Source: Clostridia bacterium
Lineage (GTDB): Bacteria > Bacillota > Clostridia > Oscillospirales > CAG-272
DNA: 32,286 nucleotides
Direction of reading: 5' to 3'
Assembly: GCA_017452545.1 (NCBI GenBank)
Contig: JAFTME010000030.1
Coordinates: 1-32,286, forward strand
In this document: positions 561-29,813 of the stretch, one piece after another
How the letters are laid out: every line of letters starts with the position of its first letter
How positions within the stretch are numbered: position 1 is the first letter of the stretch
Notes under the pieces: model-generated
Database searches by the model: none
What the model was told of the DNA's origin: nothing
The model's input: the letters and a program-made list of their open reading frames with translations, nothing else
Program-made: the position numbers and the translations under genes

Positions 561-1547
561 TTACATATCTTTCTTCTGGTAGAAGACATACGCCGAGAAG
601 ATACCGCCGATAATGGCAACGATCACGATAATGATCAGGAAGTAGATCCATGCCATTGCCGAGCTGAGCGTTTGTCCGTCTGCGTCGCCGTAAACCTCGG
701 CAACGTATTTCATGACTTGGTTAGAGTCGGTCGTAAACGAGTCGATGATGGTATAGACGCCGTTAACCAGGATCATCGGGCTGATCATCGGAAGGGTGAT
801 CTTCCAGAAGGTTTCCCAAGAGGTTGCGCCGTCGATGCGGCAGGACTCGTAAATTGCGGGAGAGATGGACTGCAGGGCTGCCAGGAAGATCAGCATCTGT
901 ACGCCGGAACGGTTAACGATATTGAAGATATTGTTAACTGCGTTTGCAACGTAGGTAACGATGCCCTGACCGACCTTCATGCCGGAGAACAGTCGCTGGA
1001 TATCCATAGCGGAGACGATTTCCGATGCCGCGCTGGATTCTTCACCCGTTTCGATACCCTCCGTGCTACCCATGTAGTCGCTCAGCGTGTTCTGTGCCTC
1101 GATGCCCTCCATGATACCGGTTGCAAGAACAACAGGCAGGAAGAAGATTGCACGGAATGCTGCACGGCCGACCATCTTCTGGTTCAAGAGAACTGCCATG
1201 AACAGAGAGAAGATCAGAATTGCGGGGATATCAAACGCCAACTGGGTCAAGCCGGAGGTCAGCGTTCTGAAGAAGTTGGGGTCGTCAAAGAGTGCGTCGT
1301 GGTAGTTTTTCCAACCGACGAACTCCAGCTCGTAGCCACCGCCCTGGACGATATTGACCGTATTGAAGCTCATGACGATAGAGTCATAAACCATCGGCAG
1401 GTAGACCAGGACAAAGCCAATGACGAACGGGAGGACAAAGAACCAACCCGCACGAGCCTTACGGCGATCGAGAGATGCGATTTTGCGCTTTTTGGGCGCA
1501 GCTTTATTTGCGCTTACTGTTGTTTTCAGCTTTGCTTCGTTTGTCAT
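561..1547 (-). CDS. Sugar ABC transporter permease, MalF/UgpA type (second permease pair)
   Basis: Integral membrane permease of a CUT1-type carbohydrate importer, 328 aa. The ATG at 1545-1547 is preferred over the adjacent TTG (1550) because AGAGGTG sits at proper distance from it. After a basic N-terminus (PKKRKIASLDRRKARAG) the first membrane segment is WFFVLPFVIGFVLVYLP. The EAA loop is visible near residue 240: YESCRIDGATSWETFWKITL, with the conserved D-G-A and I-LP pattern. Between the third and fourth core segments lies an unusually long, acidic extracytoplasmic stretch of about 50 residues (around 150-200, NTLSDYMGSTEGIETGEESS), which could contact a binding protein. It is 18 nt after the DUF5696 gene and 21 nt before the MalG-type partner, so it is co-transcribed. 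It stops with TAA. Confidence 0.92.
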   Translation of the reverse strand: MTNEAKLKTTVSANKAAPKKRKIASLDRRKARAGWFFVLPFVIGFVLVYLPMVYDSIVMSFNTVNIVQGGGYELEFVGWKNYHDALFDDPNFFRTLTSGLTQLAFDIPAILIFSLFMAVLLNQKMVGRAAFRAIFFLPVVLATGIMEGIEAQNTLSDYMGSTEGIETGEESSAASEIVSAMDIQRLFSGMKVGQGIVTYVANAVNNIFNIVNRSGVQMLIFLAALQSISPAIYESCRIDGATSWETFWKITLPMISPMILVNGVYTIIDSFTTDSNQVMKYVAEVYGDADGQTLSSAMAWIYFLIIIVIVAIIGGIFSAYVFYQKKDM

Positions 1548-1565
1548 CAATTACACCTCTCTTTC

Positions 1566-4500
1566 TCAATGCTGAATGACGACGTACTCATTCGCGGGGA
1601 TCGTGTAAACCTTTGCTACGCCATCAACATCATAGTTGACGGTAACAGCAAAGTTGTTATAGTTGAGAATGAAGGTCTTGTAAGGAGTTACGGTCAGGCC
1701 GTCCTTATCACCGTAGGTAACGGCAACGATATTACCGTTATTGATGAGATAAGGATTGACTTCCTCTTCAACTTCCTCTTCCTTCTCTTCCTCATCGGTG
1801 ATCAGGTATTCGTCGATCTCTTCCTTGGTAATGTTACCGGCGGCAGCCTTTTCGTAGATGGTAGATACGTAGGACTGGCAGATCTGAACCTGCTCTTCGA
1901 TTGCGGACAGGTAAGAAGCGGTATCCTCTGCACACTTCTGTGCATCCAGAATCAGCTCCTCTGCTGCACCTGCTGCGGTCAGCAGATCAACTGCCTTTGC
2001 AGCGTCAGCCTGCAGCTGCAGAACCTCATCATAGGTCTTGAGTGCATCCTGAGCCATCTGGATACCGTTGGTTGCTGCCTTACGGGCGTCGGTCAGCTGC
2101 GTTCTGTAGGACTTGAGTGCAGCCTTGATCTGGCCCTCGGTAGCGTTGGGTCTGTTCAGATAGTTCTGGTATGCTTCCCACTTGCTGATACTGTCGCGCA
2201 GCTTCTTATCGATCTCTGCGGTAGCAGTCTTGATCTTCTTTGCATCATCCTTAAGCTGCTCCAGGATCTTCTCCATGGTTTCTACACCGCTCTTGGCTGC
2301 AGCTCTTGCTGCGGCGATCTCGCGGATGCGCTCCAGAGCCATCTGCTCGTCGTACTGAGCCTCGTACTTTGCGCGCTCAGCCTCAGCAGCAGCGATCTCT
2401 GCCTGGATCTCGTCGGCATCCAGAATACGGATACCCTCGATGAACTCATGGTCAACGATCAGTTTGGTCTGAATATCGCCCATGACGCTATTCAGCTCAT
2501 TGTAAAGGGAGATCACGTCTTCCTTCCAAATTGCGTAGTTGATGGAGTAATACTGGGAGAGCTGGAAGAATTCCTTCAGCTCGCTGGTATTGCGGTAAGA
2601 GAGCGTGAAATACAGGGAGGAACCGTTTTCGATTGCCTTCAGCATTGCATAGTTAGCGTCGCCTTCCATGTTGATCGGCGTGCCTGCAAACTGGATATAA
2701 CCGTGCAGGACCAAACCGACGAACGGAATAGAACGGCTTGCCTTCATGAAGCGGGAGGAATCAAGGTCAACGTTGAGGATATGATCCAGATACTTCCAGG
2801 TGTATGCATTCGCGCCGTCAGCCATGATGCCGTTGACGTTTGCATCGGAGGAGATAGCAGCCAGTGCATTCTCAAGGAAGGTCTTGTTATCCTCGCGGTT
2901 GTAAGGCTCATCCTCATCGAAGTCGGTATTCAGGTCAGTACCCATGGTACTGAGCGAAATACCCATGCCGCCGAGGTCTGCATATTCTGCATACTCACCC
3001 AGCAGCTTGGTGTAGATGCGATCGATATACGCGGGAGAGATTGCTCTCTCGAAGTAACCGACATGAGTCTGCCAGCAAGGATCGTAATATCTCTTGGAGG
3101 TATAACGGTTATCGATGGTGCGGATCAGGTCGCGCTTGGGTCTGATGCCGTCGAACATCTCGGTCATGGACAGGTACTGCAGCTCAAACTCAGGGAAAAT
3201 ACCCAGGTGGCCGTCGCCCTTATTGACCGTGTTCGCGTAATCCAGCAGGCCCTCGAACTCAGCCTTGCCGCCGACCGACTTTTCCCACTTCAGCTTGGTG
3301 GGAGCAGTTGCGTACATACCGCCGTTTGCATAACCGGTCAGCTTGAAGTTGATGTTCTTAACGCCGGCCTCGGACAGCTCCTTATACATCAGCTCAATGT
3401 CGTCGAAGGTAGCCAGGGGCTTCATGACTTCTACGGGGAAGGACATGATCTGCTCCGTTACCTCGATGGCACCGAAGGACTCGATGTACAGGGGGATATC
3501 GTCGGTTACGTCAGCGTCGGTCAGGCGAGAGAGGATCTCCTTCTCTGTCAGATAATCGGTGTAGGCGGATGCCATGCCGACGTAATCTGCTGCGTAGAAG
3601 TTACCGCTCTCGGTATAACCGGTCTCGGTAGCCAGTGCGGGATCGGACAGCATGACGTAGCGGATCTTGAAGTTTCCGGTGTACTTTCTGTCGGAAACGA
3701 TAGTCATCGTGTTAGACTCGGAGACCGAGATTGCGTCGGACAGGTCGTAGGAATCCTTGGGACGGGGGTTGAAGTAGTTCATGATGGTGTGATAGTCGTT
3801 CAGGGAGCCGGCGTGATAGGTTGCCAGCTTACAGAGCGACTCACCCTCTTCAATGATTGCGAAGTAACCGTTCTGGTAGACGACCTCTTCAATTGCGGAG
3901 TAGTCGTCGTAGGTACCTGCGGTTACCTTCTCGTCCAGCAGGGTTTCCAGCTTTTCGATGCTCTTTGCAACCGTTGCGGAGATGGAGTGCTGCTCCTCGA
4001 CGAGCTCGGTTTCACCGGTCTCATCGTTCTCTACCTCGGTCGTGGTGGTGTAGGTGTAGAACATCTGGTCTTCCTTAATGCCGAAGACGGGCATACGCAG
4101 TGCCTTCTGATAGGTACCGCCATCCAGGTTATGGTAAGCGTAGTCAAGGCCGTAGATACGACGAGAGGTCGTATAGGTCTGCTTACCTGCCAGGTCCTCG
4201 AATGCGAACAGCGCACCGGAGCCGTCGGGATAGAAGGTATAACCGGTGTTATAGCTGTTACCTGCGCCCATGTAGGGCAGGATGCTGATGTGCTCCAAGG
4301 AGTACAGCGTGGAGTTAAAGCGAACGCCGTTTGTAGGCAGACGAACGGTAAAGCCGTCCTCGTTCAGCGTATACTCCAGTGCCATCTTAAAGACGGGAGA
4401 AAGCTCATTTTCGCTCTCGTAGCCGGTCTCTGCATGGTCAGCGTCCATCTGGTCGAAGGTGTAGTCAGGGCAGTAACCCTTGATCTGCTCCTCGATGAAG

Positions 4501-5228
4501 TTCAGCTCGACCGAGCTGATGGTGGGGTCAAGGCTGTAAACGTCCATCTCTGCGCAGATGGGGTACTTCTGCAGCAGCGCCTCTTTACCCTTCTTAGAGG
4601 TAGCGGTATCAAGATCCTGCAGCGTATAGAATGCACATACACGCTCGAAAGAGTGCGTACCGCCGATTGCCTCCTCCATGGGAGCCTTAATCAGCGTATC
4701 GAAGTTAGTACGGGAAATCAGGCGGGGTGCGAGCTTTCTCGTAGCCTCGTCACCGATGGTGTACTCTACGCGGACACCGGTCTTGATCTTCTTGACCTTG
4801 AGCTGATTGTTCAGCGCGGCATCCTTATAGGAATACATTTCCTTTTGCTGATCGTTATCTACATATTTGATAATGATCTGCGACAGGATCTGCTGCTTAT
4901 AGTTAGCAGAACCGATCGAGCTTGCGACGTCATAGGGGTTGGACAGAGAGATCTGACCGGTCTTCTTATTGACGATGGCAAAGGCTGCGGTAAAGTCGTT
5001 GAAATACATCTGGAAGTTGTCGTTTTCCATGTACAGCGTCATGTACTCGAGAACTTCCTCGGGCTTATTGAACACCTCAGTAGTGTAATCGATGGTGGAA
5101 GCGGTCTTGACCTCTTCCTCCTCTTCCGTTTCTGCTGCGCTGACGTTAAGCACAGAGAGGCAAGTCATAGAACCAAGCACCATCAAAACAGCTAAGAGGG
5201 TCGAGATTGTTCTTAAAAACAGTTTCAT
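1566..5228 (-). CDS. Secreted DUF5696 protein with coiled-coil insert
   Basis: Large exported protein of 1220 aa. It has a cleavable signal peptide (hydrophobic core at residues 8-27, likely cut after NVSA near residue 31) and then a run of glutamates. The body matches my recollection of DUF5696, a family typically coded beside CUT1 sugar importers in Firmicutes. The stretch at about 560-930 has alternating strand/helix segments reminiscent of a TIM-barrel glycosidase, but I cannot name catalytic residues. Residues about 937-1157 are an Ala/Glu/Lys/Gln-rich coiled coil ending in an acidic EEEKEEEVEEE run. It interrupts the domain before a final beta segment (about 1158-1220, with FILNYNNFAVTV). 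The start has AGGAG 9 nt upstream. It is fifth in the transporter operon, 23 nt after the Yip1 part. A role in handling the sugar outside the membrane is inference. Confidence 0.85.
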   Translation of the reverse strand: MKLFLRTISTLLAVLMVLGSMTCLSVLNVSAAETEEEEEVKTASTIDYTTEVFNKPEEVLEYMTLYMENDNFQMYFNDFTAAFAIVNKKTGQISLSNPYDVASSIGSANYKQQILSQIIIKYVDNDQQKEMYSYKDAALNNQLKVKKIKTGVRVEYTIGDEATRKLAPRLISRTNFDTLIKAPMEEAIGGTHSFERVCAFYTLQDLDTATSKKGKEALLQKYPICAEMDVYSLDPTISSVELNFIEEQIKGYCPDYTFDQMDADHAETGYESENELSPVFKMALEYTLNEDGFTVRLPTNGVRFNSTLYSLEHISILPYMGAGNSYNTGYTFYPDGSGALFAFEDLAGKQTYTTSRRIYGLDYAYHNLDGGTYQKALRMPVFGIKEDQMFYTYTTTTEVENDETGETELVEEQHSISATVAKSIEKLETLLDEKVTAGTYDDYSAIEEVVYQNGYFAIIEEGESLCKLATYHAGSLNDYHTIMNYFNPRPKDSYDLSDAISVSESNTMTIVSDRKYTGNFKIRYVMLSDPALATETGYTESGNFYAADYVGMASAYTDYLTEKEILSRLTDADVTDDIPLYIESFGAIEVTEQIMSFPVEVMKPLATFDDIELMYKELSEAGVKNINFKLTGYANGGMYATAPTKLKWEKSVGGKAEFEGLLDYANTVNKGDGHLGIFPEFELQYLSMTEMFDGIRPKRDLIRTIDNRYTSKRYYDPCWQTHVGYFERAISPAYIDRIYTKLLGEYAEYADLGGMGISLSTMGTDLNTDFDEDEPYNREDNKTFLENALAAISSDANVNGIMADGANAYTWKYLDHILNVDLDSSRFMKASRSIPFVGLVLHGYIQFAGTPINMEGDANYAMLKAIENGSSLYFTLSYRNTSELKEFFQLSQYYSINYAIWKEDVISLYNELNSVMGDIQTKLIVDHEFIEGIRILDADEIQAEIAAAEAERAKYEAQYDEQMALERIREIAAARAAAKSGVETMEKILEQLKDDAKKIKTATAEIDKKLRDSISKWEAYQNYLNRPNATEGQIKAALKSYRTQLTDARKAATNGIQMAQDALKTYDEVLQLQADAAKAVDLLTAAGAAEELILDAQKCAEDTASYLSAIEEQVQICQSYVSTIYEKAAAGNITKEEIDEYLITDEEEKEEEVEEEVNPYLINNGNIVAVTYGDKDGLTVTPYKTFILNYNNFAVTVNYDVDGVAKVYTIPANEYVVIQH

Positions 5229-5251
5229 TTCGTTGTTCTCCTATCTGTATA

Positions 5252-5683
5252 TTATACGCGGTACTGGATTTCTACTACGATATTGGTAATCAAGCTGATG
5301 ATCTTACCGACCAGCGTCGAGAAGAGCAGAGCGACGAAGATGATCAGTGCCATACCAACAATGGTGCCTACGAAGGTGATCAGGTTCTTACCCATGGAAT
5401 AATCGTGTGTAACCATCGTTCCAAAGAAGACCAGGATACCCATCCAGAACAGTGCGATGGTAAATACCAGCGCGATGAGCGAGGCTTCCGTCGTAATAAC
5501 GAAGTTAGACAGGAAGACTGCGGGGATCATCAGCAGCGGTACGGGAACTAGGGAGTAGGAAACGGCGATAAAGATATCCTTAAAGCTGCCTTCACCCTCG
5601 AAGAGCGTGGTCAAACACCAGTTTGCGGTTACGAACAGGAACAGCGGAACCAGTACGCCGATCAGCTGTGCCAGACTGGTGGA
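5252..5683 (-). pseudogene. C-terminal continuation of the NHL-Yip1 protein after an in-frame TAG
   Basis: These 143 codons follow directly and in the same frame from the TAG at 5684-5686 and end in TAA. They encode the rest of the Yip1-like membrane domain: four hydrophobic segments (for example LIGVLVPLFLFVTANWCLTT and FTIALFWMGILVFFGTMV) and the family's EGEGSFKDIFIAVSYSLVP motif. No base is inserted or lost. With the TAG read as an amino acid the whole protein would be 713 aa. I see no ribosome site or convincing start inside it, so separate translation is unlikely. It is either the dead tail of a truncated gene, a sequencing or assembly error, or part of a product made by reading through TAG. 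Confidence 0.7.
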
Positions 5684-7393
5684 CTAGCTGTTGGTGGGGT
5701 TCATAACGTAACCGATACCGATGGACTGATAGTAGAATGCGACAATGGTAAGGCCGACGAAGACGAGAGATGCACGCAGCGAGCCGCGCTTTTCGTGCTT
5801 CAGATCCCAGAAGCCATCGAAGGGATGGAACATGGTATGGAAGCCGAACAGGATCTCCTGCCAGAAGGTCTTGCGCTCACGACCGTCGGTCGAGACCTTT
5901 TTGTTGACCTTCTTTGCGTAGCCGAAGAACTTAACGACGATAACGATAGCAGCAACGACGATCAGGATCAGCAGGAGGAAGTAGCGAGACATCCACTCCT
6001 TACGAACCTCCTTATAGGCGTTGGACCAGTTGGTGGTATCGTATGCGGTTTCGTAGTACTCCAGAGCCTCGGCGTAGTCACCGCTGCGGTACAGTGCGTT
6101 ACCGATACCGATGTAGGCGGCGTCGAAGTTGGAGTTATGCTGAAGAACGCTTCTCCAGCAGGTGATAGCGTAGGTATAATCGAGCGAGTTCTCTGCGGCG
6201 ATTGCTTCCATGAGCAGGTCACCGTAGGGGGTTCTCTCGTAGACGACGACACAGTTACCGGACTTATCCAGAACCAGCATGGTATCGTCCTGATAGGTGA
6301 TCGCCTCAATGTTGGAGATGGAGCCCAGCATGGAGCCCTTATCACCAAAGGCAAACAGCAGATTACCGTTGAAGTCGTAGGTGTAGATCTTACTTCTCTT
6401 CTCGTCGATGATAGACCAGGTCTGATCGGGACCGCAGGCTACGTCGATGACACGGGAAACGCCGTTATAGGTTTCGGTGGGGTCGGTGGTATAATCGATC
6501 TCACCGGCGGGAGCGAAGAAGCCGTTACGTCTCATAATTTCGGAGCCGGCTGCGTTCAGCATCTTGACGGGAAGCTGATCGCCGTTCTTGGAACGGATTG
6601 CACCGGCGACCGTGCCCTCATCGATAGAGGAGGTGGTTACGTAGATATAACCGCGGTTCTGCTCGTTGGTGGTGATGGTGATGTTGTTAAACTCGGTGGA
6701 AACGTATTGCTGCTGCTGCTTTCTCTGTGCTTCGGTCTGGAATCTTCTCCAGATGATGTCCAGGAAAGAGATGGTAACCTTCTGTGCACCGATGAACTTA
6801 ACGAAGTCGCCGTTCTCCGTCAGAACGATAACGCCCTGATAGGTGGTAGAGGATACGACATACAGACGGTTCCAGTCGTCAACTGCAATCGCAACGGGCT
6901 TATAAACGCTGTCCTCTTCGAACAGTGCGCTTTCGGGCTCTTCAATCTGCTTGATGAAGTTACCGTCGCGGTCGAACACGACGATACGGCTCTTACCGGT
7001 ATCGCAGACCCAAATGCGGTCCTTGGTAACGTAGAGGCCCTGGGGGTTGGACAGAGCATCGTCGATACCCTGCTCGTTGATAAAGGTGCTGATATAGAAC
7101 TTAGCCTTATAATAACGGTCCAGTGCGATGATTCGGTTATTACCCGAGTCTGCGATGTAGACGTTATCATCCTCGTCGGTGATCAAGTCTGCGGGGTTAT
7201 TCAGACCCAGCTCGTCGATGCCCATTGCTGCAGCATCAAGCGAGATATACGCGGAGTACGCGTCGGGAGAGTTGACCGCATTACCATTGATATCGTAGGT
7301 ATAGCTCTTGTACGCCGAGGACGCGCTGACGGGAACGGACAGCAGCGTAATCATTGCAAGGACGACTGCAAGAACAGATATAATCTTTTTCAT
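5684..7393 (-). CDS. NHL-repeat/TPR/Yip1-domain membrane protein, ended early by TAG
   Basis: Exported, membrane-anchored protein read here as 569 aa. It has a signal peptide (residues 1-25, ending PVSAS), then NHL-type beta-propeller repeats (about 50-390) with recurring ADSGNNRIIALD and CDTGKSRIVVFD motifs, then TPR-like helices (about 395-465, GNALYRSGDYAEALEYYETA). One membrane span follows (471-490) and then the first part of a Yip1 domain. The reading frame stops at a TAG after NPTNS, in the middle of the Yip1 domain, and continues open beyond it. The start has GGAGG overlapping the preceding stop, 11 nt after the MalG-type permease. Proteins of this build are coded with sugar importers and DUF5696 proteins; their function is not established. 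A sensor or scaffold for the importer complex is my inference. Confidence 0.85.
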   Translation of the reverse strand: MKKIISVLAVVLAMITLLSVPVSASSAYKSYTYDINGNAVNSPDAYSAYISLDAAAMGIDELGLNNPADLITDEDDNVYIADSGNNRIIALDRYYKAKFYISTFINEQGIDDALSNPQGLYVTKDRIWVCDTGKSRIVVFDRDGNFIKQIEEPESALFEEDSVYKPVAIAVDDWNRLYVVSSTTYQGVIVLTENGDFVKFIGAQKVTISFLDIIWRRFQTEAQRKQQQQYVSTEFNNITITTNEQNRGYIYVTTSSIDEGTVAGAIRSKNGDQLPVKMLNAAGSEIMRRNGFFAPAGEIDYTTDPTETYNGVSRVIDVACGPDQTWSIIDEKRSKIYTYDFNGNLLFAFGDKGSMLGSISNIEAITYQDDTMLVLDKSGNCVVVYERTPYGDLLMEAIAAENSLDYTYAITCWRSVLQHNSNFDAAYIGIGNALYRSGDYAEALEYYETAYDTTNWSNAYKEVRKEWMSRYFLLLILIVVAAIVIVVKFFGYAKKVNKKVSTDGRERKTFWQEILFGFHTMFHPFDGFWDLKHEKRGSLRASLVFVGLTIVAFYYQSIGIGYVMNPTNS

Positions 7394-7404
7394 TGTAATC
7401 CTCC

Positions 7405-8277
7405 TTAATCTTTCATACCACTGGAACCCATGGTTTCAATGATATTGGACTGCGAAATAACGAATACGATGATCGGGACTGCCATCATCAGTACCAGAGA
7501 TGCTGCGGAAGCACCCGCACGCTTGATACCGCCGGCAGTGATCTGACCGATTGCATAGTTGAAGGTCTTGAGCTGCTCGGAGTAAATAAACACGGAAGCA
7601 CCTGCGTTCCAGAGGCCCTGGAAGGAGTAGATGATCAGCGTCAGCCAAGCGGGCTTAACCATGGGCATTGCGATGACCCAGAAGGTACGGAACTCGCTTG
7701 CACCGTCAAGTCTTGCACTCTCCAAAACGGCGTCGGTAACGTTGGTATCCATGAACTGCTTCATCAGGTACAGACCCAGCGTGGAAGCCCATGCGGGAAC
7801 GATGATTGCCCAGTAGGTATCGATCCACTTGAAAGCAGCCATAACGATGAACAAGCAGAGCGCGGTAACGGTCTGATGGAACATCAGCGACATCTCAACG
7901 GTCTTGAACATCAGGACGCGGCCCGGGAACTTGATCTTTGCCAGTGCGTAAGCACACATGGAGGCGAGGAGCAGGTGTCCGAAGGTACCGGCAATGGAGA
8001 TGAAGACGGTGTTGAAGATGTAACGGGTGAAGGGCACCCAGGAGGTGTTCATCAGGATGAACAGATCCTTAAAGTTATCGAGTGTGGGGTTGATTACGTA
8101 AAAACGGGGAGGATACATCCAAAGCTCGTCAAGAGGCTTCAGCGACTGCATGATAACGTAGATCATAGGCAGGAACATGAAGGCACCCAAGATCACCAGC
8201 ATGAATGTAATTCCGGCGTCGCCTCCCGCAGAGCGGGAGAGGACGACCTTATGCTTTCTTGTTCTAAGTTTTGCCAT
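7405..8277 (-). CDS. Carbohydrate ABC transporter permease, MalG type (first permease pair)
   Basis: Inner-membrane permease of 290 aa, the usual size for MalG-type CUT1 proteins. The first span is ITFMLVILGAFMFLPMIYVI, followed by QSLKPLDELWMYPPRFYVIN, a typical periplasmic start. The ATPase-contacting EAA loop is LESARLDGASEFRTFWVIAM near residues 185-205. It starts only 1 nt after the stop of the MalF-type partner, so the two are translationally coupled. A weak AAGGTAGG-like site lies within the partner's end. It ends in TAA just before the ribosome site of the NHL-Yip1 gene. It forms a heterodimer with the product of 8279-9229 by analogy with MalFG; the substrate is unknown. Confidence 0.93.
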   Translation of the reverse strand: MAKLRTRKHKVVLSRSAGGDAGITFMLVILGAFMFLPMIYVIMQSLKPLDELWMYPPRFYVINPTLDNFKDLFILMNTSWVPFTRYIFNTVFISIAGTFGHLLLASMCAYALAKIKFPGRVLMFKTVEMSLMFHQTVTALCLFIVMAAFKWIDTYWAIIVPAWASTLGLYLMKQFMDTNVTDAVLESARLDGASEFRTFWVIAMPMVKPAWLTLIIYSFQGLWNAGASVFIYSEQLKTFNYAIGQITAGGIKRAGASAASLVLMMAVPIIVFVISQSNIIETMGSSGMKD

Positions 8278-8278
8278 A

Positions 8279-9229
8279 TTAAGTACCTACCTTCGACAGC
8301 ATTCTCTTGATCAGCATATTGGAGCCGATCATGACTGCGAACAGCACGACGGCGATCGCAGAGGCGTAACCCATTTCATAACGCTGGTTTGCAAAGTCTT
8401 CCAAATGGTGCATGATGGTATGTGCGGAATAGTCAACCGAGGGGAAGCCGCACAGTGCGGTTACGACGCCACCGAAGCCGAAGGCACCGGTGATTGCCAT
8501 GACTGCACCGAACATCAGCTGCGGACGCATGGAGGGCAGCGTGATGTACCAAAGCTCCTGCCAACGGTTACGGATACCGTCAACGGCACCTGCCTCGAAC
8601 AGTGCGCGGTCGATACCCTGCAGACCTGCGATAAAGGACAGGAACGCGGTACCGAGCGACGTCCAGAGGGCGACGATGATACAAAGCGGCATGACGTACT
8701 CGGCATTCTGGAACCATGCGATAGGCTCAACGATGATACCAAGCTCGATCAGAGATGCGTTGACCCAGCCGTAAGCGTCGGCGGAGAACAGCGTACCCCA
8801 AATCAGATACACCTGACCGGAGATGGACGGTGCGTAGAAGATCAGAGTAACGATAGCACGGACACGGGGATCCAGCTCGTTGATGAACCATGCAACGAGG
8901 AACGACAACAGGTAGGACACAGGACCTACGACGCACGCGAACAGCAGCGTGTTCTTACATGCGATCAGGAAGATGTCGTCGTCGAAAAACAGGGTGATGT
9001 AATTGTCCAGCCAAACGATATTGGGGGGCAATTGCAACATATTAAAGTCGGTGAAGCTGATGAACGCCGACAGAATGACGGGCATGACGGTGAAGATGGT
9101 GAAGAGGATCATGTAGGGTGCAACCATGAGGTATGCGACCTTATTGACCTTCATTTCCTTCCATATCCACTGAGCACGAGTCATATCTGTACGGGACACC
9201 GCTTTCAGTTCTGCAGTTTTCTGTGACAT
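8279..9229 (-). CDS. Sugar ABC transporter permease, MalF/UgpA type (first permease pair)
   Basis: Integral membrane permease of 316 aa. After a cytoplasmic tail the first span is VAYLMVAPYMILFTIFTVMP, followed by the LSAFISFTDFNMLQLPP region and the family pattern W.DNYITLF. The EAA loop near residues 215-240 is FEAGAVDGIRNRWQELWYIT, then LPSMRP. AAGGAG lies about 9 nt before ATG. It begins 43 nt after the substrate-binding protein gene and is overlapped closely by the MalG-type partner. The visible hydrophobic segments fit six spans. No nucleotide-binding subunit is coded nearby, so it must use a shared ATPase (MsmK/UgpC-like) from elsewhere or one to the left of the window. Confidence 0.93.
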   Translation of the reverse strand: MSQKTAELKAVSRTDMTRAQWIWKEMKVNKVAYLMVAPYMILFTIFTVMPVILSAFISFTDFNMLQLPPNIVWLDNYITLFFDDDIFLIACKNTLLFACVVGPVSYLLSFLVAWFINELDPRVRAIVTLIFYAPSISGQVYLIWGTLFSADAYGWVNASLIELGIIVEPIAWFQNAEYVMPLCIIVALWTSLGTAFLSFIAGLQGIDRALFEAGAVDGIRNRWQELWYITLPSMRPQLMFGAVMAITGAFGFGGVVTALCGFPSVDYSAHTIMHHLEDFANQRYEMGYASAIAVVLFAVMIGSNMLIKRMLSKVGT

Positions 9230-9272: not shown

Positions 9273-12200
9273 TCAGTACGTGCTCAGTGCCTCTGCAGCG
9301 TCGGACAGACACTCGGCTGCGAAGAAGAGGAGCTGATCGTAGGTAAGACCGTCGATATCATAACCGCCGTTCTTCTTTTCCTGATCCTGTCTGGAAACCT
9401 TGACATAGTAATCATCTACATTCTTGGATGCAAGGCGTTCCATCAAAGCATCTGCACAATCCTGCAGAATAATGATTTCTTCATCTGCAATCGCATTGGA
9501 TGCGGTGATCATAATTGTTTCAAGCTCTGCACTCTGCTCTACCAGGAGCTCAAGTGCAACCATTGCCTGCTCACCGCGCTTATCGGCCAGCGTCTGACCG
9601 ACCTCAAGCGTCTCAAGCAGGAACTCTGCACGCTTACGGGTAATCTCCTTGTTGATGGTGTTGATGTAGCCCAGCAAGCTTGCAACGGGATCGGCATCCT
9701 TGTTGTAAGCAGCAAGGAATGCAAAGTTGGTATAACGGTCGATGTAGTAGGTACCGGGGTAGTTGGGGATTGCTGCGAGGTTTTCGAACTGCTTGGAAAC
9801 CTCAACGTACTCCTCGGTGGTCCAAGGCAGCGATCTCAGAGCTTCTCTGTTTGCGGTGTTGTGCTTTGCAGAGTCACCCATGATAGCAGCCATTTCGTTT
9901 GCGTAGTCAGCCTGGCAGGTAGCGCCGGTAAACCACTTCAGATACTCCCAAGCCTCGTCTTCCTGGTCGCAGCCCTTGACGATAACGTCGGCGAGGACAC
10001 CGGAAACGGAGCAGTTGTTGATTGCGCCGGTCTCTTCATCCAGGGTACCGGGCATCGGAACGAACTTCCACAGACCGTCGATCTCGGTTGCGAAGACCTT
10101 GAGCTGGTTGTACATACCGGTATAGTCGGCAACCAGGATAGGCATCTCACCCGTTCTGAAACGGTTTGCAGCATTGTAGGTGTAGGGGAAGCCGCGCATG
10201 GTGAACAGCGTACACATGGTCTCGAATGCATCCAGACCCTCCTTGGAGTCCAGATTGATTCTCATACCGCCGTCAGCGAACAGGTCGCTGCCGCCCTGGT
10301 ACAGGAACACCTTGTAGTCGGTCGTCAGACCGATCTCCATGTTGTTACCCTCAAGGACCGTCTGTGCCTCGTAGATATCGTCCCAGGTTTTGGGGATCTC
10401 GATACCCATATCGGCAAGAACGTCGATACGAACGAACATCATGCTGAAGCCCTGCGTTTCGGGCAGACCGTAGTAGTGCAGCTCATCGTCTGCGTTTGCA
10501 ATACCGAGAACCATCATTGCGGAGTCGGTAAAGTTCTTGGTGACCTCTTCGAAGTCCTCGCGGACGGTGCCGTCGGACTTAACGTCCAGCGTTTCCAGCG
10601 CACCGCGGATCGCGTAGTTGATGATGGTACCTGCGTCAATTCCCAGGAAGACGTCAGGGCCCATGCCTGCCAGGATGGAAGGCATCAGCGTACCGCCGGC
10701 AACCAGCTTAAGGTCGACGGGGATACCGGTCGTGGGTGTGAAGCCGTCGGTGGTCAGCGCACGGATGACCTGAGACTGGTCACGTGCGGTCTGCAGCCAA
10801 ACCTCAAGAGAATCCTCGGTCGTCTCAGCCATAGCACCCATGGAGTTATAGTCACGGATGAAGGACTGGATAAAGGAGGAGATCTCGTGTGCGATCTTCT
10901 TGAAGAAGCCGGGCTCAGCTACGGGCAGCTCCGAATCAACGGGCTGGATCAGAATGTAGTCAAGCTGCAGGGGCTGTTTCTTTGCGTCGGAGAGGAAGGT
11001 ACCCAGCGAACCGATGTGGGTCTTGAGCTGCTCCAGGTTGGGAGCGATCTCGTCCTCTTCGTGCATCTTAAACAGCGTTTCGGCAACCTTCTCCAGCGTA
11101 GCAACGGTGGAGGAGCTGGAGCCCGCGATTGCCTTCAGCTCAGCTGCGACCTCGTACAGTCGGCGGGACTGCTCGACCATATCGGACAGCGTCTGAGGCA
11201 TAACGCGCGTGAAGTTATAGTCACGGTAATCGTCGGGGGAGGTACCGGTCAGACGGAGGATGTTCAGGTAGTCTGCGTTGACGCAGTTCAGAACGTTCTC
11301 GATCTTTGCGATGACCTCAGCCATGCTACCCAGCGTAACGTCAAGGCGCAGCGTGTAGGTAACGCCCTCGACGAAGTAGAACTGGTATTTGATCAGGTTA
11401 CCGTTTGCATCCACGTCACCGTTGACGGTGCTGGTGGACTGCCAGTAACCGGAATAGTTAAAGCGTGCAGCAGCGACCTCTGCGAAGGGGTAGCCGTTAT
11501 AGTAGCCGTCGTCGCCTTCCTTCAGACCGTCGCTGTACAGCTGAATTGCACGGCTGACGAACAGACCGTCAAGCACGGACTGTTTAAAGCGGAAGTCCAG
11601 CGTATAGAGACCGGTGGAGTCTACCTCGAAGGTATACTCGACGCTCTGACCGGGAGTTCCCCACTTCTCACCGCCGTTACCGCCGATGGTGTTCAGCAGC
11701 GTACGGGTGGTATCCGTAGGAGAGTTTGCGGCAGAAGCGCGGTCCTCTGCGGGATACAGCGTGTTGGAGGACAGGTTGGTGGGATACTCAGCCTCGAGCT
11801 TAATGGTGGAGGCACCCTTGGGAGCGTTCGCGTACTTTGCGATGTACTCCTCGTAGGTGATCAGGTCCTCGTGAGGATACAGCTCGATCTTGGAGATCGC
11901 CATAGCCTCGTTGACGCCCTTGAGCGTCAGAGTGACCTTACCCTCGGCATCGGGCTCGATGATGTACTCGAAGGACTCGGCGTTATAGCCCTGGCTGTCG
12001 CGCAGCTCGTATACGCGCCACTCGGGAGTCTGAACCGTCGAGGGACGCAGCTCGTTGCGCTGCAGGTCGATGGTCATAAAGCGAACGCCGAGCGTATCGT
12101 TCAGATACGTGGAAACGGCTTCCGTCCAGACCGTCGGGAAGGTATATATAATGTAGGTGCCATCCTCGCGGGTCTCCTCGGTTGCAACGACGCCAATATC

Positions 12201-12824
12201 CTTAGCAGCGTTGAGGAGCTCGCTTGCACTCTCATCCTTGCCTACCTTATAAGCAGCGCTTGCGTACTCGTTTGCCCAAACCTTCTCGAAGCTCAGCGAA
12301 CGAGACTCCTTGAAAGCAGCACTGCCGTTGATATAAAACTCTCTCTCCACAGCCGCGGACTTACCGGCGACGGGATAGTAGTAGACGCGTGCGCTGTACA
12401 GACCGGCGGGGACATCGGTCAAGGTCCAGCTGACGGAGCCGTCTCCAGGCGTATACAGGCCCTTCTGGCCGTCGAATTCACCGGCATAAATACCCTTGGG
12501 GTTATTGGCGGCATCGTCGTCATTCAGCAGCGCCCACTGCTCATCCGTCAACCACTCCAGCGTGGTCTTTTCCTCGTCAAGATCCTTGATTGCATCGAAT
12601 ACGACGGTTTCCTTCGCTCTTTCGTAATATTCGAAGCTATCGTTGTACTCATCGTACGAAATCGACTCGAGCTCTTCCTTATAATCAGCAATCGTCTTTT
12701 CGGTGACGGTGCTGTTGATCACAACGTCGCCTTCCTGCGCGGATACAGTAAAGATACTGCAGCCGAGGAGAAGCGTCATTGCGAGCAAGAAAGAAGCCAC
12801 TCTTTGAAATTTCGTTTTTCTCAT
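9273..12824 (-). CDS. Giant extracellular solute-binding protein with carbohydrate-binding-like domains
   Basis: Exported sugar-binding protein of 1183 aa, more than twice the usual 400-450. The N-terminus is a signal peptide; LLGC at 19-22 could be a lipobox, although TVSA followed by Gln could instead be cut by signal peptidase I. Residues about 110-320 and 341-505 look like beta-sandwich carbohydrate-binding modules (the second opens with IKLEAEYP, as in CBM6/35-type domains). About 540-660 is helical. Residues about 660-1070 are the binding-protein core, with the RDQSQVIRALTTDGFTPTTG start, GPDVFLG and TWDDIYEAQTVL motifs typical of CUT1 binding proteins. A helical tail follows. GGAGGAAAG precedes the ATG. 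It is the first gene of the operon and is preceded by a roughly 360-nt leader. It would deliver substrate to the permeases; the ligand is unknown. Confidence 0.92.
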   Translation of the reverse strand: MRKTKFQRVASFLLAMTLLLGCSIFTVSAQEGDVVINSTVTEKTIADYKEELESISYDEYNDSFEYYERAKETVVFDAIKDLDEEKTTLEWLTDEQWALLNDDDAANNPKGIYAGEFDGQKGLYTPGDGSVSWTLTDVPAGLYSARVYYYPVAGKSAAVEREFYINGSAAFKESRSLSFEKVWANEYASAAYKVGKDESASELLNAAKDIGVVATEETREDGTYIIYTFPTVWTEAVSTYLNDTLGVRFMTIDLQRNELRPSTVQTPEWRVYELRDSQGYNAESFEYIIEPDAEGKVTLTLKGVNEAMAISKIELYPHEDLITYEEYIAKYANAPKGASTIKLEAEYPTNLSSNTLYPAEDRASAANSPTDTTRTLLNTIGGNGGEKWGTPGQSVEYTFEVDSTGLYTLDFRFKQSVLDGLFVSRAIQLYSDGLKEGDDGYYNGYPFAEVAAARFNYSGYWQSTSTVNGDVDANGNLIKYQFYFVEGVTYTLRLDVTLGSMAEVIAKIENVLNCVNADYLNILRLTGTSPDDYRDYNFTRVMPQTLSDMVEQSRRLYEVAAELKAIAGSSSSTVATLEKVAETLFKMHEEDEIAPNLEQLKTHIGSLGTFLSDAKKQPLQLDYILIQPVDSELPVAEPGFFKKIAHEISSFIQSFIRDYNSMGAMAETTEDSLEVWLQTARDQSQVIRALTTDGFTPTTGIPVDLKLVAGGTLMPSILAGMGPDVFLGIDAGTIINYAIRGALETLDVKSDGTVREDFEEVTKNFTDSAMMVLGIANADDELHYYGLPETQGFSMMFVRIDVLADMGIEIPKTWDDIYEAQTVLEGNNMEIGLTTDYKVFLYQGGSDLFADGGMRINLDSKEGLDAFETMCTLFTMRGFPYTYNAANRFRTGEMPILVADYTGMYNQLKVFATEIDGLWKFVPMPGTLDEETGAINNCSVSGVLADVIVKGCDQEDEAWEYLKWFTGATCQADYANEMAAIMGDSAKHNTANREALRSLPWTTEEYVEVSKQFENLAAIPNYPGTYYIDRYTNFAFLAAYNKDADPVASLLGYINTINKEITRKRAEFLLETLEVGQTLADKRGEQAMVALELLVEQSAELETIMITASNAIADEEIIILQDCADALMERLASKNVDDYYVKVSRQDQEKKNGGYDIDGLTYDQLLFFAAECLSDAAEALSTY

Positions 12825-12844
12825 GTAACTTTCCTCCTACAAGA

Positions 12845-13110
12845 TTTTCGCAAAAGCGCATGGAAACGTGCGCCTTGCGGCCTGGGTGCGCATCCACAAA
12901 TGCCGGATTCCTGCCGATTATCCGTCCCGGGTAAAGACGGCGGCAAGATCGCCACTCCACCTTGAAAAATCAAAGAAATTTCAAGGGAGCGAACGGATTT
13001 GGACAGTTGTCCCGACTGTACCGTATCCGCTCGGCATTGGAACGCCACCGGTCACCGACCCAGAAGTCGGCATGATTGTGGTATAGGCAGAACTCGCTCC
13101 GCACCCCGGG
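12845..13110 (-). ncRNA. Candidate structured leader RNA of the importer operon
   Basis: No gene fits here, but the minus-strand transcript can form many stems. A 7-bp closing helix joins 13094-13100 to 12986-12992. Inside it are GCCGAC/GUCGGU (13066-13071 with 13054-13059), GGCGU/AUGCC (13042-13046 with 13033-13037), CGGAU/AUCCG (13025-13029 with 12994-12998) and, within that, ACAGU/ACUGU (13015-13019 with 13003-13007). Next comes CUUGAAA/UUUCAAG (12979-12985 with 12961-12967), which can extend by pairing 12986-12989 with 12955-12958. That extension competes with the closing helix. Further small stems include CCGUC/GACGG (12936-12940 with 12922-12926). Class unknown to me; a raiA-type RNA or a riboswitch are possibilities. 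It could also be a stand-alone RNA. Confidence 0.5.
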
Positions 13111-13167
13111 GAACGATTTCCGCCTCGCAAAAATAAGGATTTTCGGCGTTTTTTACGCAAAAGCGCA
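12849..13167. repeat. 12-bp direct repeat bracketing the leader RNA
   Basis: CGCAAAAGCGCA occurs at 12849-12860 and again at 13156-13167 in the same orientation, at the two ends of the structured leader. Each copy contains a CGC-AAAA-GCG mini-hairpin. The repeats could be part of the RNA structure, binding sites, or traces of an insertion. Feature limits span from the first copy to the second. Confidence 0.4.
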
Positions 13168-13192
13168 GAACTCCCTACTTTGAGATGGTAAT

Positions 13193-13221
13193 ATGATAGC
13201 ACAACCGCAAGTCAATGTCAA
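13193..13221 (-). promoter_or_regulatory. Sigma-A promoter of the importer operon leader
   Basis: On the minus strand TTGACA (13216-13221) is followed after exactly 17 nt by TATCAT (13193-13198). Transcription would start near 13186, giving a leader of about 360 nt before the binding-protein ATG at 12824. The box match is five or six of six in each element. Confidence 0.7.
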
Positions 13222-25286: not shown

Positions 25287-25334
25287 GGGGTAGAAAAAAA
25301 TCCTTGAAAAAAGCAACATTTTTTTCGCGCGCTA

Positions 25335-25363
25335 TTGAAAAGACGGACAAAAAACGATATAAT
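25335..25363 (+). promoter_or_regulatory. Promoter of the GH38 gene
   Basis: TTGAAA (25335-25340), 17-nt spacer, TATAAT (25358-25363). The ATG at 25394 follows after a short leader. It is divergent from the rbfA promoter. Confidence 0.8.
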
Positions 25364-25393
25364 GGTAGCAACCAAATGAAAGGAGCATATCCT

Positions 25394-27820
25394 ATGAAGC
25401 AAGTACATCTGGTTTGCAATGCACACATCGACCCCATCTGGCAATGGGAATGGCAGGAGGGCGTCAGCGTTGTGCTGTCCACCTTCCGCTCTGCCGTCAA
25501 TCTTGCGGCGGAATTCGACTATATTTTCTGTCACAACGAGGTCACCGTTTATAAATACGTAGAGGAGTACGATCCCGCGCTGTTTGAGGACATCAAGCGC
25601 TTGCACCGCGAGGGCAAGTGGCACATTATGGGCGGCTGGTATCTGCAGCCCGACTGCAATATGCCCTCGGGCGAGAGCTTTGTCCGTCAGATTTTGGAGG
25701 GTAAGCGCTACTTTATGAGCCGCTTTGGCACCTTCCCCACCACAGCCATCAACTTTGACCCCTTTGGTCACACGCGCGGCTTGGTACAGATCATTAAAAA
25801 ATGCGGCCAAGACAGCTATATCCACTGCCGTCCCTGGCAGCACGAGTGTCCTCTGCCCTCCAACCAATTTTTGTGGAAGGGCTTTGACGGCAGCACCATC
25901 AAGGTCAACCGCGCCTCCGACGGCGGCTACGGAACACCGCTGGGCGGTGCTGTGGGCGGCATTCGCGCAAAGGCTGCGGCACAGCCGCAGGATACCGTTT
26001 GCGTGCTTTGGGGCGTAGGTAACCACGGCGGCGGCCCGTCGCGCAAGGATCTTGCCGACATTGAGGAGCTGATTGCGGCGGGAGAGATGGAAATCCTGCA
26101 CTCGACCCCCGAGCAGTTCTTTGCACGCATTCACCCTACTGAGATCGTCGATCACTCGCTTCGCATTTCGATGCCCGGCTGCTACACCTCCATGGGTCGC
26201 ATCAAGCGCAAGCACATACAACTGGAAAACGAGCTGTACATGGCAGAAAAAATGCTGACGATCGCCATGCTCGCCGGTGCGCTGCGCGAGTATCCGGAGG
26301 ATATGATCCACACCATTACCGAGGACCTGCTCAACGCAGAATTCCACGACGTGCTGCCGGGCAGCAGTGTTCAATCGGGAGAGGACAACGGTCTGAAGCT
26401 GCTGGATCACGGTCTGCTTGAGGCAGAGCGCCTCAAGACACGTGCCTATTTTGCGCTTGCTGCCGCGCAGCCCGTCGCTGCGCCCGGCGAGTATCCCGTG
26501 CTGGTATTCAATCCGTCGGCGATGGAGATCACCGAAAACGTCGAGGTGGAGTTCATGCTTGCCGATCAGAACTGGAACGGCGAGCTGATTCACGAGATGT
26601 CTGTTTTTGACAAGGACGGCAAGCCGGTGCGCAATCAGACGATCAAGGAGGAGAGTAATCTCAACCTCGACTGGCGCAAGCGCATCATCTTTGAGGCGAC
26701 GCTGCCACCCATGAGCATCACGCGCTTCAGCGTTTACACCAAGGTCGTACCCAAGGTGGTCATCGAGCAAGGTGACGCGCTGGTGTTTGACAACGGACAC
26801 AAGCGTGTGGAGATCGATCGCACGACAGGCTTACTTAAGTCCTATGCGCTTGACGGCGTGGAATACGTCAAGGATGCCTTTGCGCTTTGCATGCTTGACG
26901 ACAACCCCGACCCGTGGGGCATGAGCGGTCAGCAGCTGGTGCGTCTTGGCACCAACGAGCGTGCATTCTCGCTCTCGGAGCAGCCGGACGGTGTATTCCG
27001 CGGGCTCAAAAGCGTTTCCGTTGCCGAGGACGGTGAGGTATATCTCGGCGTGGAGGCGTTGTTTGAACTGGACAACACGCGCGCGCGCATATTCTACAAG
27101 ATCTACAAGAACAACGATGCGGTAGACGTGGACGTCAACGTATTTATGGGCGACATCAACCGCATGGTCAAGCTCAAGGTTCCCTTCTCCACCGAGGGTA
27201 CGCTGATCGGTCAGACGGCGTTCGGCACCGAGGAGCTGTACATGGATGCGAGGGAGAACGTATCGCAGCGTTTTATCGCGTTGCGCGGTACGGACGGCAA
27301 GTGTCCCGCCATTCTCAACAACTGTCTGTACGGTAGCCATTTTGAGAACGGTGCGCTGTATCTTTCGCTCATTCGCGGTGCCAGCTACTGTGCGCATCCC
27401 ATTCACGATCGCCCCATCATTCCGACCGATCGCTTCGTCAAAAAGATCGACCAGGGCGAGAACAATTTCTCCTTCCGCCTCGGCGTTTATGCGGAGGGAG
27501 CGCTGGAAAACGCAGCGCAGCTGTTCAATCAAAAGCCGTATGCGCTCAACGTATTCCCCACGGGCAGTCCCAGCGCGCATGGCTGCGAGCCCTTCCCCAT
27601 CAAGTCGGACGATGCCGAGATCAGCATTGTGACCATGAAAAAGGCAGACGGCTGCGATGACACCTACATTGTTCGTCTGCTCAACAACACGCCCGAAGCG
27701 AAATCGACCGAGTTTTCGCTGTGCGATGCCAAGATCGCGCTGGAGTTTGTGCCCTACGAGGTCAAGACGTTGCTGCTCAAGAACGGTACTCTGACGGAGT
27801 CGGAGGCGCTGCTGATCTGA
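25394..27820 (+). CDS. Alpha-mannosidase-like glycoside hydrolase family 38
   Basis: Zinc-dependent retaining glycosidase of 808 aa with no signal peptide, so probably cytoplasmic and acting on imported mannose-containing oligosaccharides. Zinc and catalytic residues fit the GH38 pattern: His11 and Asp13 in NAHIDPIWQW, the nucleophile Asp122 in NFDPFGHTRGL, and His318 in AEFHDVLPGSSV. The C-terminal half is the all-beta part found in the family (for example VFDNGHKRVEIDRTTGLLKS). AAAGGAG lies 8 nt before the ATG. The first catalytic motif varies at NFDPFG, where many members have a PDSFG form. Specificity is inferred from family only. The promoter at 25335 drives it; no terminator follows, so the next gene may be partly co-transcribed. 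Confidence 0.92.
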   Translation: MKQVHLVCNAHIDPIWQWEWQEGVSVVLSTFRSAVNLAAEFDYIFCHNEVTVYKYVEEYDPALFEDIKRLHREGKWHIMGGWYLQPDCNMPSGESFVRQILEGKRYFMSRFGTFPTTAINFDPFGHTRGLVQIIKKCGQDSYIHCRPWQHECPLPSNQFLWKGFDGSTIKVNRASDGGYGTPLGGAVGGIRAKAAAQPQDTVCVLWGVGNHGGGPSRKDLADIEELIAAGEMEILHSTPEQFFARIHPTEIVDHSLRISMPGCYTSMGRIKRKHIQLENELYMAEKMLTIAMLAGALREYPEDMIHTITEDLLNAEFHDVLPGSSVQSGEDNGLKLLDHGLLEAERLKTRAYFALAAAQPVAAPGEYPVLVFNPSAMEITENVEVEFMLADQNWNGELIHEMSVFDKDGKPVRNQTIKEESNLNLDWRKRIIFEATLPPMSITRFSVYTKVVPKVVIEQGDALVFDNGHKRVEIDRTTGLLKSYALDGVEYVKDAFALCMLDDNPDPWGMSGQQLVRLGTNERAFSLSEQPDGVFRGLKSVSVAEDGEVYLGVEALFELDNTRARIFYKIYKNNDAVDVDVNVFMGDINRMVKLKVPFSTEGTLIGQTAFGTEELYMDARENVSQRFIALRGTDGKCPAILNNCLYGSHFENGALYLSLIRGASYCAHPIHDRPIIPTDRFVKKIDQGENNFSFRLGVYAEGALENAAQLFNQKPYALNVFPTGSPSAHGCEPFPIKSDDAEISIVTMKKADGCDDTYIVRLLNNTPEAKSTEFSLCDAKIALEFVPYEVKTLLLKNGTLTESEALLI

Positions 27821-27901
27821 CAGACATAAAAACGCCCGTCGGAATATGATGCGAGTTCTTTATATTGTCAATTATTTCGGATTGAAACGGTTACCTGGCT
27901 T

Positions 27902-27917
27902 TCAAAGCATGCTTTGA
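27902..27917. promoter_or_regulatory. Perfect 16-bp palindrome upstream of the GH127 gene
   Basis: TCAAAGCATGCTTTGA is a perfect 16-bp palindrome lying between a weak TTCAAA and a TATTAA box (27924-27929), about 30 nt before the ATG. A second partly symmetric site, GAAACGGTTAC, lies some 20 nt upstream and resembles LacI-family operators. It is a plausible repressor site. Confidence 0.45.
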
Positions 27918-27947
27918 TCAACGTATTAATTCAAAAAAGGGGAGCAT

Positions 27948-29813
27948 ATGGTTAAAAATATTGTTTGTGAAGCAGATCATGCGCGCGTGCTTTCTTGGGA
28001 CATGGACGCTCGTATGAAATTTGATGGGCTTCTGTCACAGGCGGTCAAGTTTATAGAGAGCAATCAAATATGTGATGTTGGCCTTTGGAAAAAGTGCGTT
28101 GACGTTTTCCGTTGGCAAGACGACGGCTGTGGCGACGTTTGGGTCAGTTGGAGAAGTGAATACTGGGGTAAAATGATGCGCGGCGCTTCTATGGTCGTAA
28201 GGTACACCGGCGACGACGGTATGTACAAGATACTTGAGAGGGCTGTTCGCGACATTCTTACCGCAGAGGACGAGCTTGGACGAATATCGGGTTACTCTGT
28301 TGAGAAAGAGTTTATTCGCTGGGATCTTTGGGGACGCAAATACGTTATGCTCGGCATGCAATACTTCATGGAGATCTGCCGCGATGAGGAATTGACAGCA
28401 GCTATGATCGCTTCCATGCGCCGCCAAGCAGACTATATAATCGAGCGCATAGGTCCCGACAAGATTGACATTCGCACCTGCTCGAACGACTGGGAGGGAC
28501 TCAACTCCTGCTCAATCCTTGAGCCGATCGTTCGTCTTTACCGGTTAAGCAACGAGAAAAAATATCTTGATTTTGCCGAATACATTATCTCCACCGGCTT
28601 TATTCAGTCGGCCAACCTCATCGAGCTGGCGTATGCGGATGAGGCATCGCCTCACGATTATCCCGTTGTCAAGGCTTACGAGATGATGTCCTGCTTTGAG
28701 GGACTTTTGCAATATTATTACGTTACGGGCATTGAAAAATACCGAACGGCCGTACTCAATTTCGGACGCAGGATCATTGACTGCGAGTTGAGTGTTATCG
28801 GCTGCAGCGGATGCACCCATGAGCTTTTTGACCATACCTCCGTGCGTCAGACACAGACAGATTACGAGGGCATCGTTCAGGAAACCTGTGTTACCGTAAC
28901 CTGGATGAAGCTCGCGGCAGCTCTTCTTGAGCTTTCGGGCGACTCTGTTTTTGCAGATCGCATTGAAGAATCCTATTACAATGCTTATTACGGCGCGTTC
29001 AACACACATCGCGTGCCCGTGAGCCACGAGAGCTATGACGATCTGCCTCAGGTTCTGCCCTTTGACAGCTATTCACCGCTTACAGCAGATCGCCGCGGCC
29101 GCCTGGTTGGAGGTTATAATTACTTCCCCGACAAGACATTTTACGGCTGTTGTGCTTGTATCAGTGCAGCCGGGGCCGGCTTGATCCCGCGCATTGCGGT
29201 TATGAGAAAGAGCGGCGGAATCGTGATAAATTATTATGAGTCGGGTATGATTGAAACAAAAACTCCTCTCGGACGGCCTTTGAAAATCACGATGGATACG
29301 GCATATCCTTATAGCGGTGAGATAAGACTTTCGTTTTCCCCCGCGCGTGCCGAGGTGTTTGAAATCGCACTCCGCATTCCCGATTGGTGTGAGAGCGCGG
29401 ATGTTGTAGTCTGCGGCAAAAAGAAGGAATTTGGCGCAGGATATGCTCGGCTTTGCGGTGAGTGGCAGGACGGTGATGAGATCGTTATGGATCTGCACAT
29501 GGGTGTAAAGCGTGTTCTTCCGCCGGAGTGCGCCGTGAATCGAGAGCTCTTTGCGGCTTACAAATACGGACCTTTGGTTCTTGCTGCTGACAAACGAATT
29601 GCCGATCCGGACGAGGTGATTGACGTTGTTTGCGACAGAGAGGGCAGCGTGGAATTCCGCAAGGTATATTGCCCTGAGATCCGCGATGCGTGCATCTGTC
29701 TTGAGCTTCCCACGACAAGCGGATCGGTCAGGCTTATTGATTATGCGTCCGCAGGAAAGACGTGGACAAACGAATCGCGCTGCGCGGCGTGGCTTTACAG
29801 AAAAAAGCAATAA
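27948..29813 (+). CDS. GH127-like beta-L-arabinofuranosidase (DUF1680 family)
   Basis: Putative zinc-thiolate glycosidase of 621 aa without signal peptide, so cytoplasmic. An alpha-helical barrel makes up the first about 420 residues, followed by beta-sandwich segments. The metal and nucleophile cluster known for Bifidobacterium HypBA1 (Glu, Cys, and a Cys pair) is seen as Glu312 and Cys314 in QETCVTVTWMKL and Cys401-Cys402 in FYGCCACISAAG. An extra Cys404 is present. The usual size of the family is 620-660 aa. AGGGGAG precedes the ATG closely. Codon use is more mixed and AT-richer than in the GH38 gene. Substrate (arabinofuranosides) is inferred from family; related GH families 142/146 are alternatives. 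Confidence 0.88.
   Translation: MVKNIVCEADHARVLSWDMDARMKFDGLLSQAVKFIESNQICDVGLWKKCVDVFRWQDDGCGDVWVSWRSEYWGKMMRGASMVVRYTGDDGMYKILERAVRDILTAEDELGRISGYSVEKEFIRWDLWGRKYVMLGMQYFMEICRDEELTAAMIASMRRQADYIIERIGPDKIDIRTCSNDWEGLNSCSILEPIVRLYRLSNEKKYLDFAEYIISTGFIQSANLIELAYADEASPHDYPVVKAYEMMSCFEGLLQYYYVTGIEKYRTAVLNFGRRIIDCELSVIGCSGCTHELFDHTSVRQTQTDYEGIVQETCVTVTWMKLAAALLELSGDSVFADRIEESYYNAYYGAFNTHRVPVSHESYDDLPQVLPFDSYSPLTADRRGRLVGGYNYFPDKTFYGCCACISAAGAGLIPRIAVMRKSGGIVINYYESGMIETKTPLGRPLKITMDTAYPYSGEIRLSFSPARAEVFEIALRIPDWCESADVVVCGKKKEFGAGYARLCGEWQDGDEIVMDLHMGVKRVLPPECAVNRELFAAYKYGPLVLAADKRIADPDEVIDVVCDREGSVEFRKVYCPEIRDACICLELPTTSGSVRLIDYASAGKTWTNESRCAAWLYRKKQ

Follow-up and report, generated by a model that had tools for sequence, protein, structure and literature searches.

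Between a near-consensus promoter and the start codon of an importer operon, the 32,286-nt stretch of clostridial DNA analysed here (the window) carries a leader of about 360 nt, and the question raised by this locus is whether that leader is a regulatory RNA and, if so, of what kind. The analysis favours, as the probable answer, a clade-specific structured leader RNA of an ABC operon whose first gene encodes a solute-binding protein (SBP), which would act in cis on its own mRNA. This reading stands on the promoter, the position, the predicted fold, the conservation between two species and the covariation seen in a sister clade.

Locus, promoter and predicted fold

The promoter (13193–13221, on the minus strand, as are all leader features below) is of the sigma-70 type with an extended -10 element (TTGACA-17-TGcTATCAT) and matches the consensus at 11 of 12 positions. 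Judging from this promoter, the leader is presumably transcribed from a start at about 13186. It fills the interval 12825–13186 that separates the promoter from the ATG of the first gene at 12824, and contains a Shine-Dalgarno AGGAGG at 12833–12838. The first gene (9273–12824, minus strand) encodes an extracellular solute-binding protein (SBP_bac_1) of 1183 residues and is followed by genes for two ABC permeases, an NHL/TPR protein, a Yip1-domain protein, a DUF5696 protein and a third permease, the operon being roughly 12 kb long. Within 561–9229 (minus strand) there are three ABC permease genes and, among the Pfam-scanned frames, no ATPase gene. No paper on DUF5696 was found in the literature search, and the substrate of the operon poses a concrete ligand question. 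Elsewhere in the window, open frames of 838 and 621 residues (25304–29813, plus strand) resemble, by eye, alpha-mannosidase-type and GH127-type glycosidases, and an MFS-like transporter frame (29935–31104, minus strand) adjoins both.

Promoters of this form are common in the same genome, where 267 sites are found at up to one mismatch versus a single site for the reversed pattern. A downstream gene could be assigned, by the rule applied, to 17 of the 30 such sites that were checked, with leaders of 24–529 nt; the leader studied here (361 nt) is the third longest of these 17, and the two longer ones are possibly misassigned. Three other strong promoters of the genome (L164, L169 and L175) each have an apparent leader of 310–529 nt.

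The leader is predicted to fold with a minimum free energy of -144.7 kcal/mol versus a mean of -120.4 for shuffled sequences (z = -4.60; none of 100 dinucleotide shuffles was as low). Together with the promoter and the position of the SBP start codon, this bears out a previous sequence-only reading of the segment as a multi-helix leader of about 360 nt before the importer operon. The predicted helices comprise 5' hairpins, a six-helix multibranch core and a hairpin proximal to the ribosome-binding site (RBS). The first 5' hairpin, SL1 (13130–13181), pairs AAAGUAGGGA with UCCUUAUUUU and has a local z of -2.65 here (4 of 300 shuffles) and -1.51 in the sister species introduced below (27 of 300); its 5' AGGG is also found in other genera. 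SL2 (13085–13125) appears in the folds of both species as a strong hairpin (z of -3.4 and -4.5) built from different sequences, and its loop carries a GGGUGCG segment (13100–13106).

The core domain, P1–P6 (12894–13081), is the section of the leader that the sister species shares; it is supported by the folds, by the alignment of the two cores (A1) and by a covariance model built on them (R1). From the folds and the comparison of pairs, P1 is formed by a 5' arm, CCACAAuCAUGCCG, at 13068–13081 and a 3' arm, CGGCAUUUGUGG, at 12894–12905; P4 (12991–13032) bears the invariant loop CGGGACA, and P6 (12906–12950) is a long stem with a conserved internal loop. P5 (12955–12990) is a variable stem: its sequence is not conserved, and its pairing is predicted in both species (fold z of -4.0 and -1.8). 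A linker containing CGCACCC (12884–12890) lies between the core and the RBS-proximal hairpin (12853–12876), which consists of AAGGCGCA/UGCGCUUU here and of AAAACGCA/UGCGUUUU in the sister species; the fold z of this last region is -0.63 in the window and -3.67 in the sister species.

A core shared with one sister species

A close DNA search of 146 relatives returned 16 with matches at E ≤ 0.01. Besides the genome of origin, only one of the 146, a species of the same genus (G001), matched over more than 45 nt, and its leader is 76% identical over positions 110–366. The matches in G002, G004 and G005 are confined to the RBS end. The G004 locus (L028) has a single in-frame TAG within the SBP gene, which may be an assembly error or mark a broken gene; the fourfold-site count between G004 and G005 covers 31 sites, since this codon ended the G004 frame.

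When folded separately, the cores of the window and of G001 give the same domain, with P1 closing P2, P3, P4, P5 and P6. The two folds have 42 pairs in common, of which 36 are unchanged, five are changed on one side and one is changed on both; all six changed pairs still pair, and the compensatory one (n = 1), in P4, is A-U here and G-C in the sister species. Sequence differs between the species in P5, in SL2 and in parts of P4. Columns 1–48 of the alignment are identical at 45 positions, compared with 62% identity at the fourfold sites of the neighbouring gene, and the GGUGACCGGUGG tract to which the sequence-only reading had drawn attention is present within this block. The core thus presents near-invariant blocks together with stems whose changes compensate. 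Identity is lower in its 5' part (61/106), and over the whole core, variable stems included, it reaches 134/188 (71%), little above the 258/417 (62%) of the fourfold sites in the adjacent gene. Covariation for this exact core is thin, because only two sequences carry it. A coding explanation of the core was rejected: the gaps between the two versions measure 2, 6 and 1 columns and therefore do not fit a reading frame.

The core is rare. A pattern taken from its most constant block, allowing up to three mismatches, was found in 2 of 395 genomes of the family, namely the genome of origin and G001, and the same two gave the strong matches of model R1 among 196 genomes. Weak R1 matches in five further genomes (E of 0.05–0.9) were taken as noise. 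In each positive genome the core occurs once, always before the SBP-first ABC operon. The suggestion of a conserved class is consequently sound within the clade and does not extend to the family.

Alternative pairings and their possible output

The sequence-only reading had proposed a switch in which 12986–12992 alternates between pairing with 13094–13100 and extending the downstream stem, thereby controlling the operon. The two segments are indeed exact reverse complements over 7 bp, but a helix of this kind is expected by chance: the leader contains four Watson-Crick helices of at least 7 bp versus 3.6 expected, and 29 of 60 shuffles reach four. Furthermore, the exact seven pairs are not kept, the helix being absent among the sister-species helices of at least 7 bp. 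This particular switch is therefore regarded as very improbable. The more general idea of mutually exclusive helices fares better, since conserved pairings of this kind are predicted elsewhere, within 12885–13081, in both species.

In the global minimum of both species P1 is open, and the hairpin GCCGACUUCyGGGUCGGU (GCCGACUUCUGGGUCGGU at 13054–13071), exclusive with P1, is formed; the same minimum contains a helix between the GGUGGCG region of the core and the linker GCGCACC. Forcing P1 to form costs 3.2 and 4.2 kcal/mol in the two species. Apart from the core GGUGGCG, the linker has a second candidate partner, as its CGCACCC (12884–12890) is exactly complementary to the GGGUGCG of the SL2 loop in both species, which would make the latter a possible pseudoknot arm. 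The folding program is pseudoknot-free, and the energies above are those of structures in which this pairing cannot be added to P1.

Neither of the two usual outputs was recognised downstream of these pairings. The terminator scan of the leader found none, and in the thermodynamic ensembles of the window and of G001 the GGAGG remains mostly unpaired with or without P1 forced. The last four bases of AGGAGG are unpaired with a probability of about 0.86–0.91 in the window and 0.62–0.87 in G001, regardless of whether P1 is forced, and its first two bases are mostly paired in both P1 states. According to these models, the conserved exclusive pairings would reach no obvious output at a terminator or at the ribosome-binding site, and, given the lack of a terminator and the mostly unpaired GGAGG, control of the operon by the proposed switch logic is not supported.

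These observations bear on whether P1–P6 might be the aptamer of a new metabolite riboswitch class, binding a sugar or a related small molecule and altering importer expression through its folding. The leader shares several traits with riboswitches as a kind: near-invariant blocks surround a junction of several helices whose stem tips vary, it precedes a transport operon, and the exclusivity between P1 and the hairpin at 13054–13071 with the 3' linker helix is conserved in two species, the alternatives being 3.2 and 4.2 kcal/mol apart. As regards an aptamer-like architecture, the same P1–P6 fold with compensating changes is found, in two sequences only. In contrast to riboswitches, no recognisable expression platform was detected by the terminator scan or the thermodynamic models, and no second locus or Rfam match accompanies the leader, which is confined to one small clade. 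It does not recur before several genes of one pathway, a single copy being present in its own genome, and four of the six genus members lack the core. Taking this into account, a riboswitch appears unlikely.

The search of Rfam 15 gave no match at the gathering thresholds in the whole window, and relaxing the limit to E values of 10 added one chance match (E of 7.9), to a family other than raiA. The leader thus matches none of the Rfam families, the T-box and the known riboswitches among them, and 12 loci of two other genera likewise gave no match. It belongs to no catalogued RNA family. The raiA motif RNA is a long structured RNA whose family is in Rfam, and the leader resembles it in being long and structured; the missing match leaves the earlier guess of a raiA-type RNA without support.

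RNAs of processive antitermination, of the EAR or LoaP type, head long polysaccharide operons, and the EAR element is also in Rfam. An element of this sort, which would be loaded within the leader and then act over the operon of about 12 kb, would agree with the single copy that always heads a long operon and with the failure to find a local terminator or RBS occlusion, by analogy with known leaders that likewise head a long operon and have no terminator of their own. The lack of any Rfam match to the leader, EAR included, stands against this analogy, and the idea is rated as distinctly unlikely, somewhat below the riboswitch.

The preferred explanation, a cis-acting structured leader, would most likely operate by influencing how stable the transcript is, how it is processed or how elongation proceeds along the long operon; a bound protein or ligand may or may not take part. 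The regulated step would then be a shift from one to the other of two states, the core closed by P1 and the alternative hairpin with its linker helix. Such a mode is preferred over that of a textbook riboswitch because the terminator scan was negative and RBS occlusion is not predicted, as far as thermodynamic models can tell.

In titles and abstracts of the literature on orphan riboswitches near sugar transporters and on raiA-like structured RNAs, no description of the leader was found. The accessible parts of two screens (PMC8040213, PMC11109978) do not mention it, and it may figure as an unnamed motif in their supplementary tables. Among the closest likenesses, judged by description, are the large orphan motifs of intergenic screens, such as the idnO motif: this is another sizeable RNA with partial covariation that lies close to genes for sugar transport, and it is classed there only as a candidate and reported mostly from Streptococcus, between manX and idnO (PMC11109978).

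Leaders at the same position in other clades

Of the 97 genomes searched, 74 contain SBP relatives, and 55 upstream regions were compared (14 of the first loci, L055 and 40 fetched stretches). A promoter score of at least 11 was obtained for 48 of these 55 orthologous or related regions, and seven regions were dropped from the listing. Leader length after the -10 element ranges from 37 to 504 nt, some of the start codons among the 55 being doubtful. The other four of the six genus members carry a different core, designated type B, and share with the window the promoter, the 5' start and the RBS end of the leader. In two further genera 22 of 23 loci yielded a leader, with lengths between 326 and 551 nt, and L140 gave no start. 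Equally long and internally conserved leaders occupy the same place in the other genus members and in these two genera, and their cores cannot be aligned to that of the window.

Another account would be a fast-evolving 5' untranslated region that merely stabilises or insulates the mRNA of an abundant SBP and folds without a specific partner. It would fit the placement before the SBP gene, with a promoter close to consensus in 48 of the 55 regions, the wide range of leader lengths (37 to 504 nt), the rapid turnover between clades and the behaviour of SL2 and the RBS-proximal hairpin, which keep their structure and not their sequence. The near-invariant, partly unpaired blocks within clades, however, exceed what a plain stabiliser would need. 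This account is considered the least improbable of the alternatives, while still rather doubtful.

Stronger covariation was obtained in a sister clade. In the genus g48a nine leaders align with conserved blocks, and 89.5% of the cells of their consensus structure are paired. Eight pairs are changed on both sides versus 2.5 in shuffles, none of 500 shuffles being as high, and the slid controls are lower; the test is favoured by the fact that its structure comes from the very alignment to which it is applied. Covariation across homologous leaders is accordingly present in the sister clade and limited, for the core of the window, to a comparison of two sequences. A model of the g48a leaders (R2) has one match per genome in 9 of that genus's 12 genomes, each at the place of these leaders before the same gene; among the other 230 genomes searched, no credible match was obtained. 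One R2 match, in G063 (E of 0.004), was taken as chance, as it falls on the strand opposite a long open frame. Two further members of the g48a genus, G052 and G355, have yet another core.

A common origin of all leader cores is not claimed. The initial cross-matches between group HMMs (best E of 7e-9) were lost once the leaders had been trimmed of their RBS end and of 28 nt next to the promoter, and across groups the trimmed models reached at best 5.4 bits versus 6.4 for the best shuffled comparison. Since the trimmed cores do not align above shuffled controls, a single shared RNA family is not proposed. Also rejected as a common feature was a helix that would close the leader as a whole (5' AGGGU with 3' ACCC), the ranks of own versus swapped duplexes being weak (median 0.35). 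A short-arm test backs it in part of two genera (e.g. L133, L134, L136, L141–L144 and L146) and leaves it unsupported in the window, in G001, in type B and in most single genera.

On the SBP tree (32 rows), the seven leader labels need six changes, which is the minimum. The leader types follow the tree, and the leader therefore appears to evolve fast but vertically; transfer from one species to another is less likely than rapid divergence, or replacement, along a few branches, because the types follow descent. Collectively, these sequence comparisons support a leader that is folded, under selection and confined to a small clade, with leaders under equal constraint in the corresponding position of other clades. 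For the family as a whole, it may tentatively be suggested, as an attractive idea short of an even chance, that the structured leader of the orthologous importer operon is rebuilt too fast for its cores to remain alignable between sister clades, under strong structural selection within each of them. If so, the leaders would form a group of cis-acting RNAs absent from the catalogues, perhaps a new class of riboswitches or of antitermination elements. Wide sequence conservation is the normal route to structured leaders, and family-based searches would overlook leaders of the present type, since no version of them extends beyond about one genus. Upon confirmation, position-anchored comparison within genera would reveal RNAs that Rfam-style searches miss.

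Two observations concern the genus g3. In L136–L144 the loop of the RBS-proximal hairpin is near-constant and contains UCCCG, with a stem of changing sequence, and in the leaders of this genus a 3' CAUACCC can pair either with a local GGUAUG or with a 5' GGGUGU.
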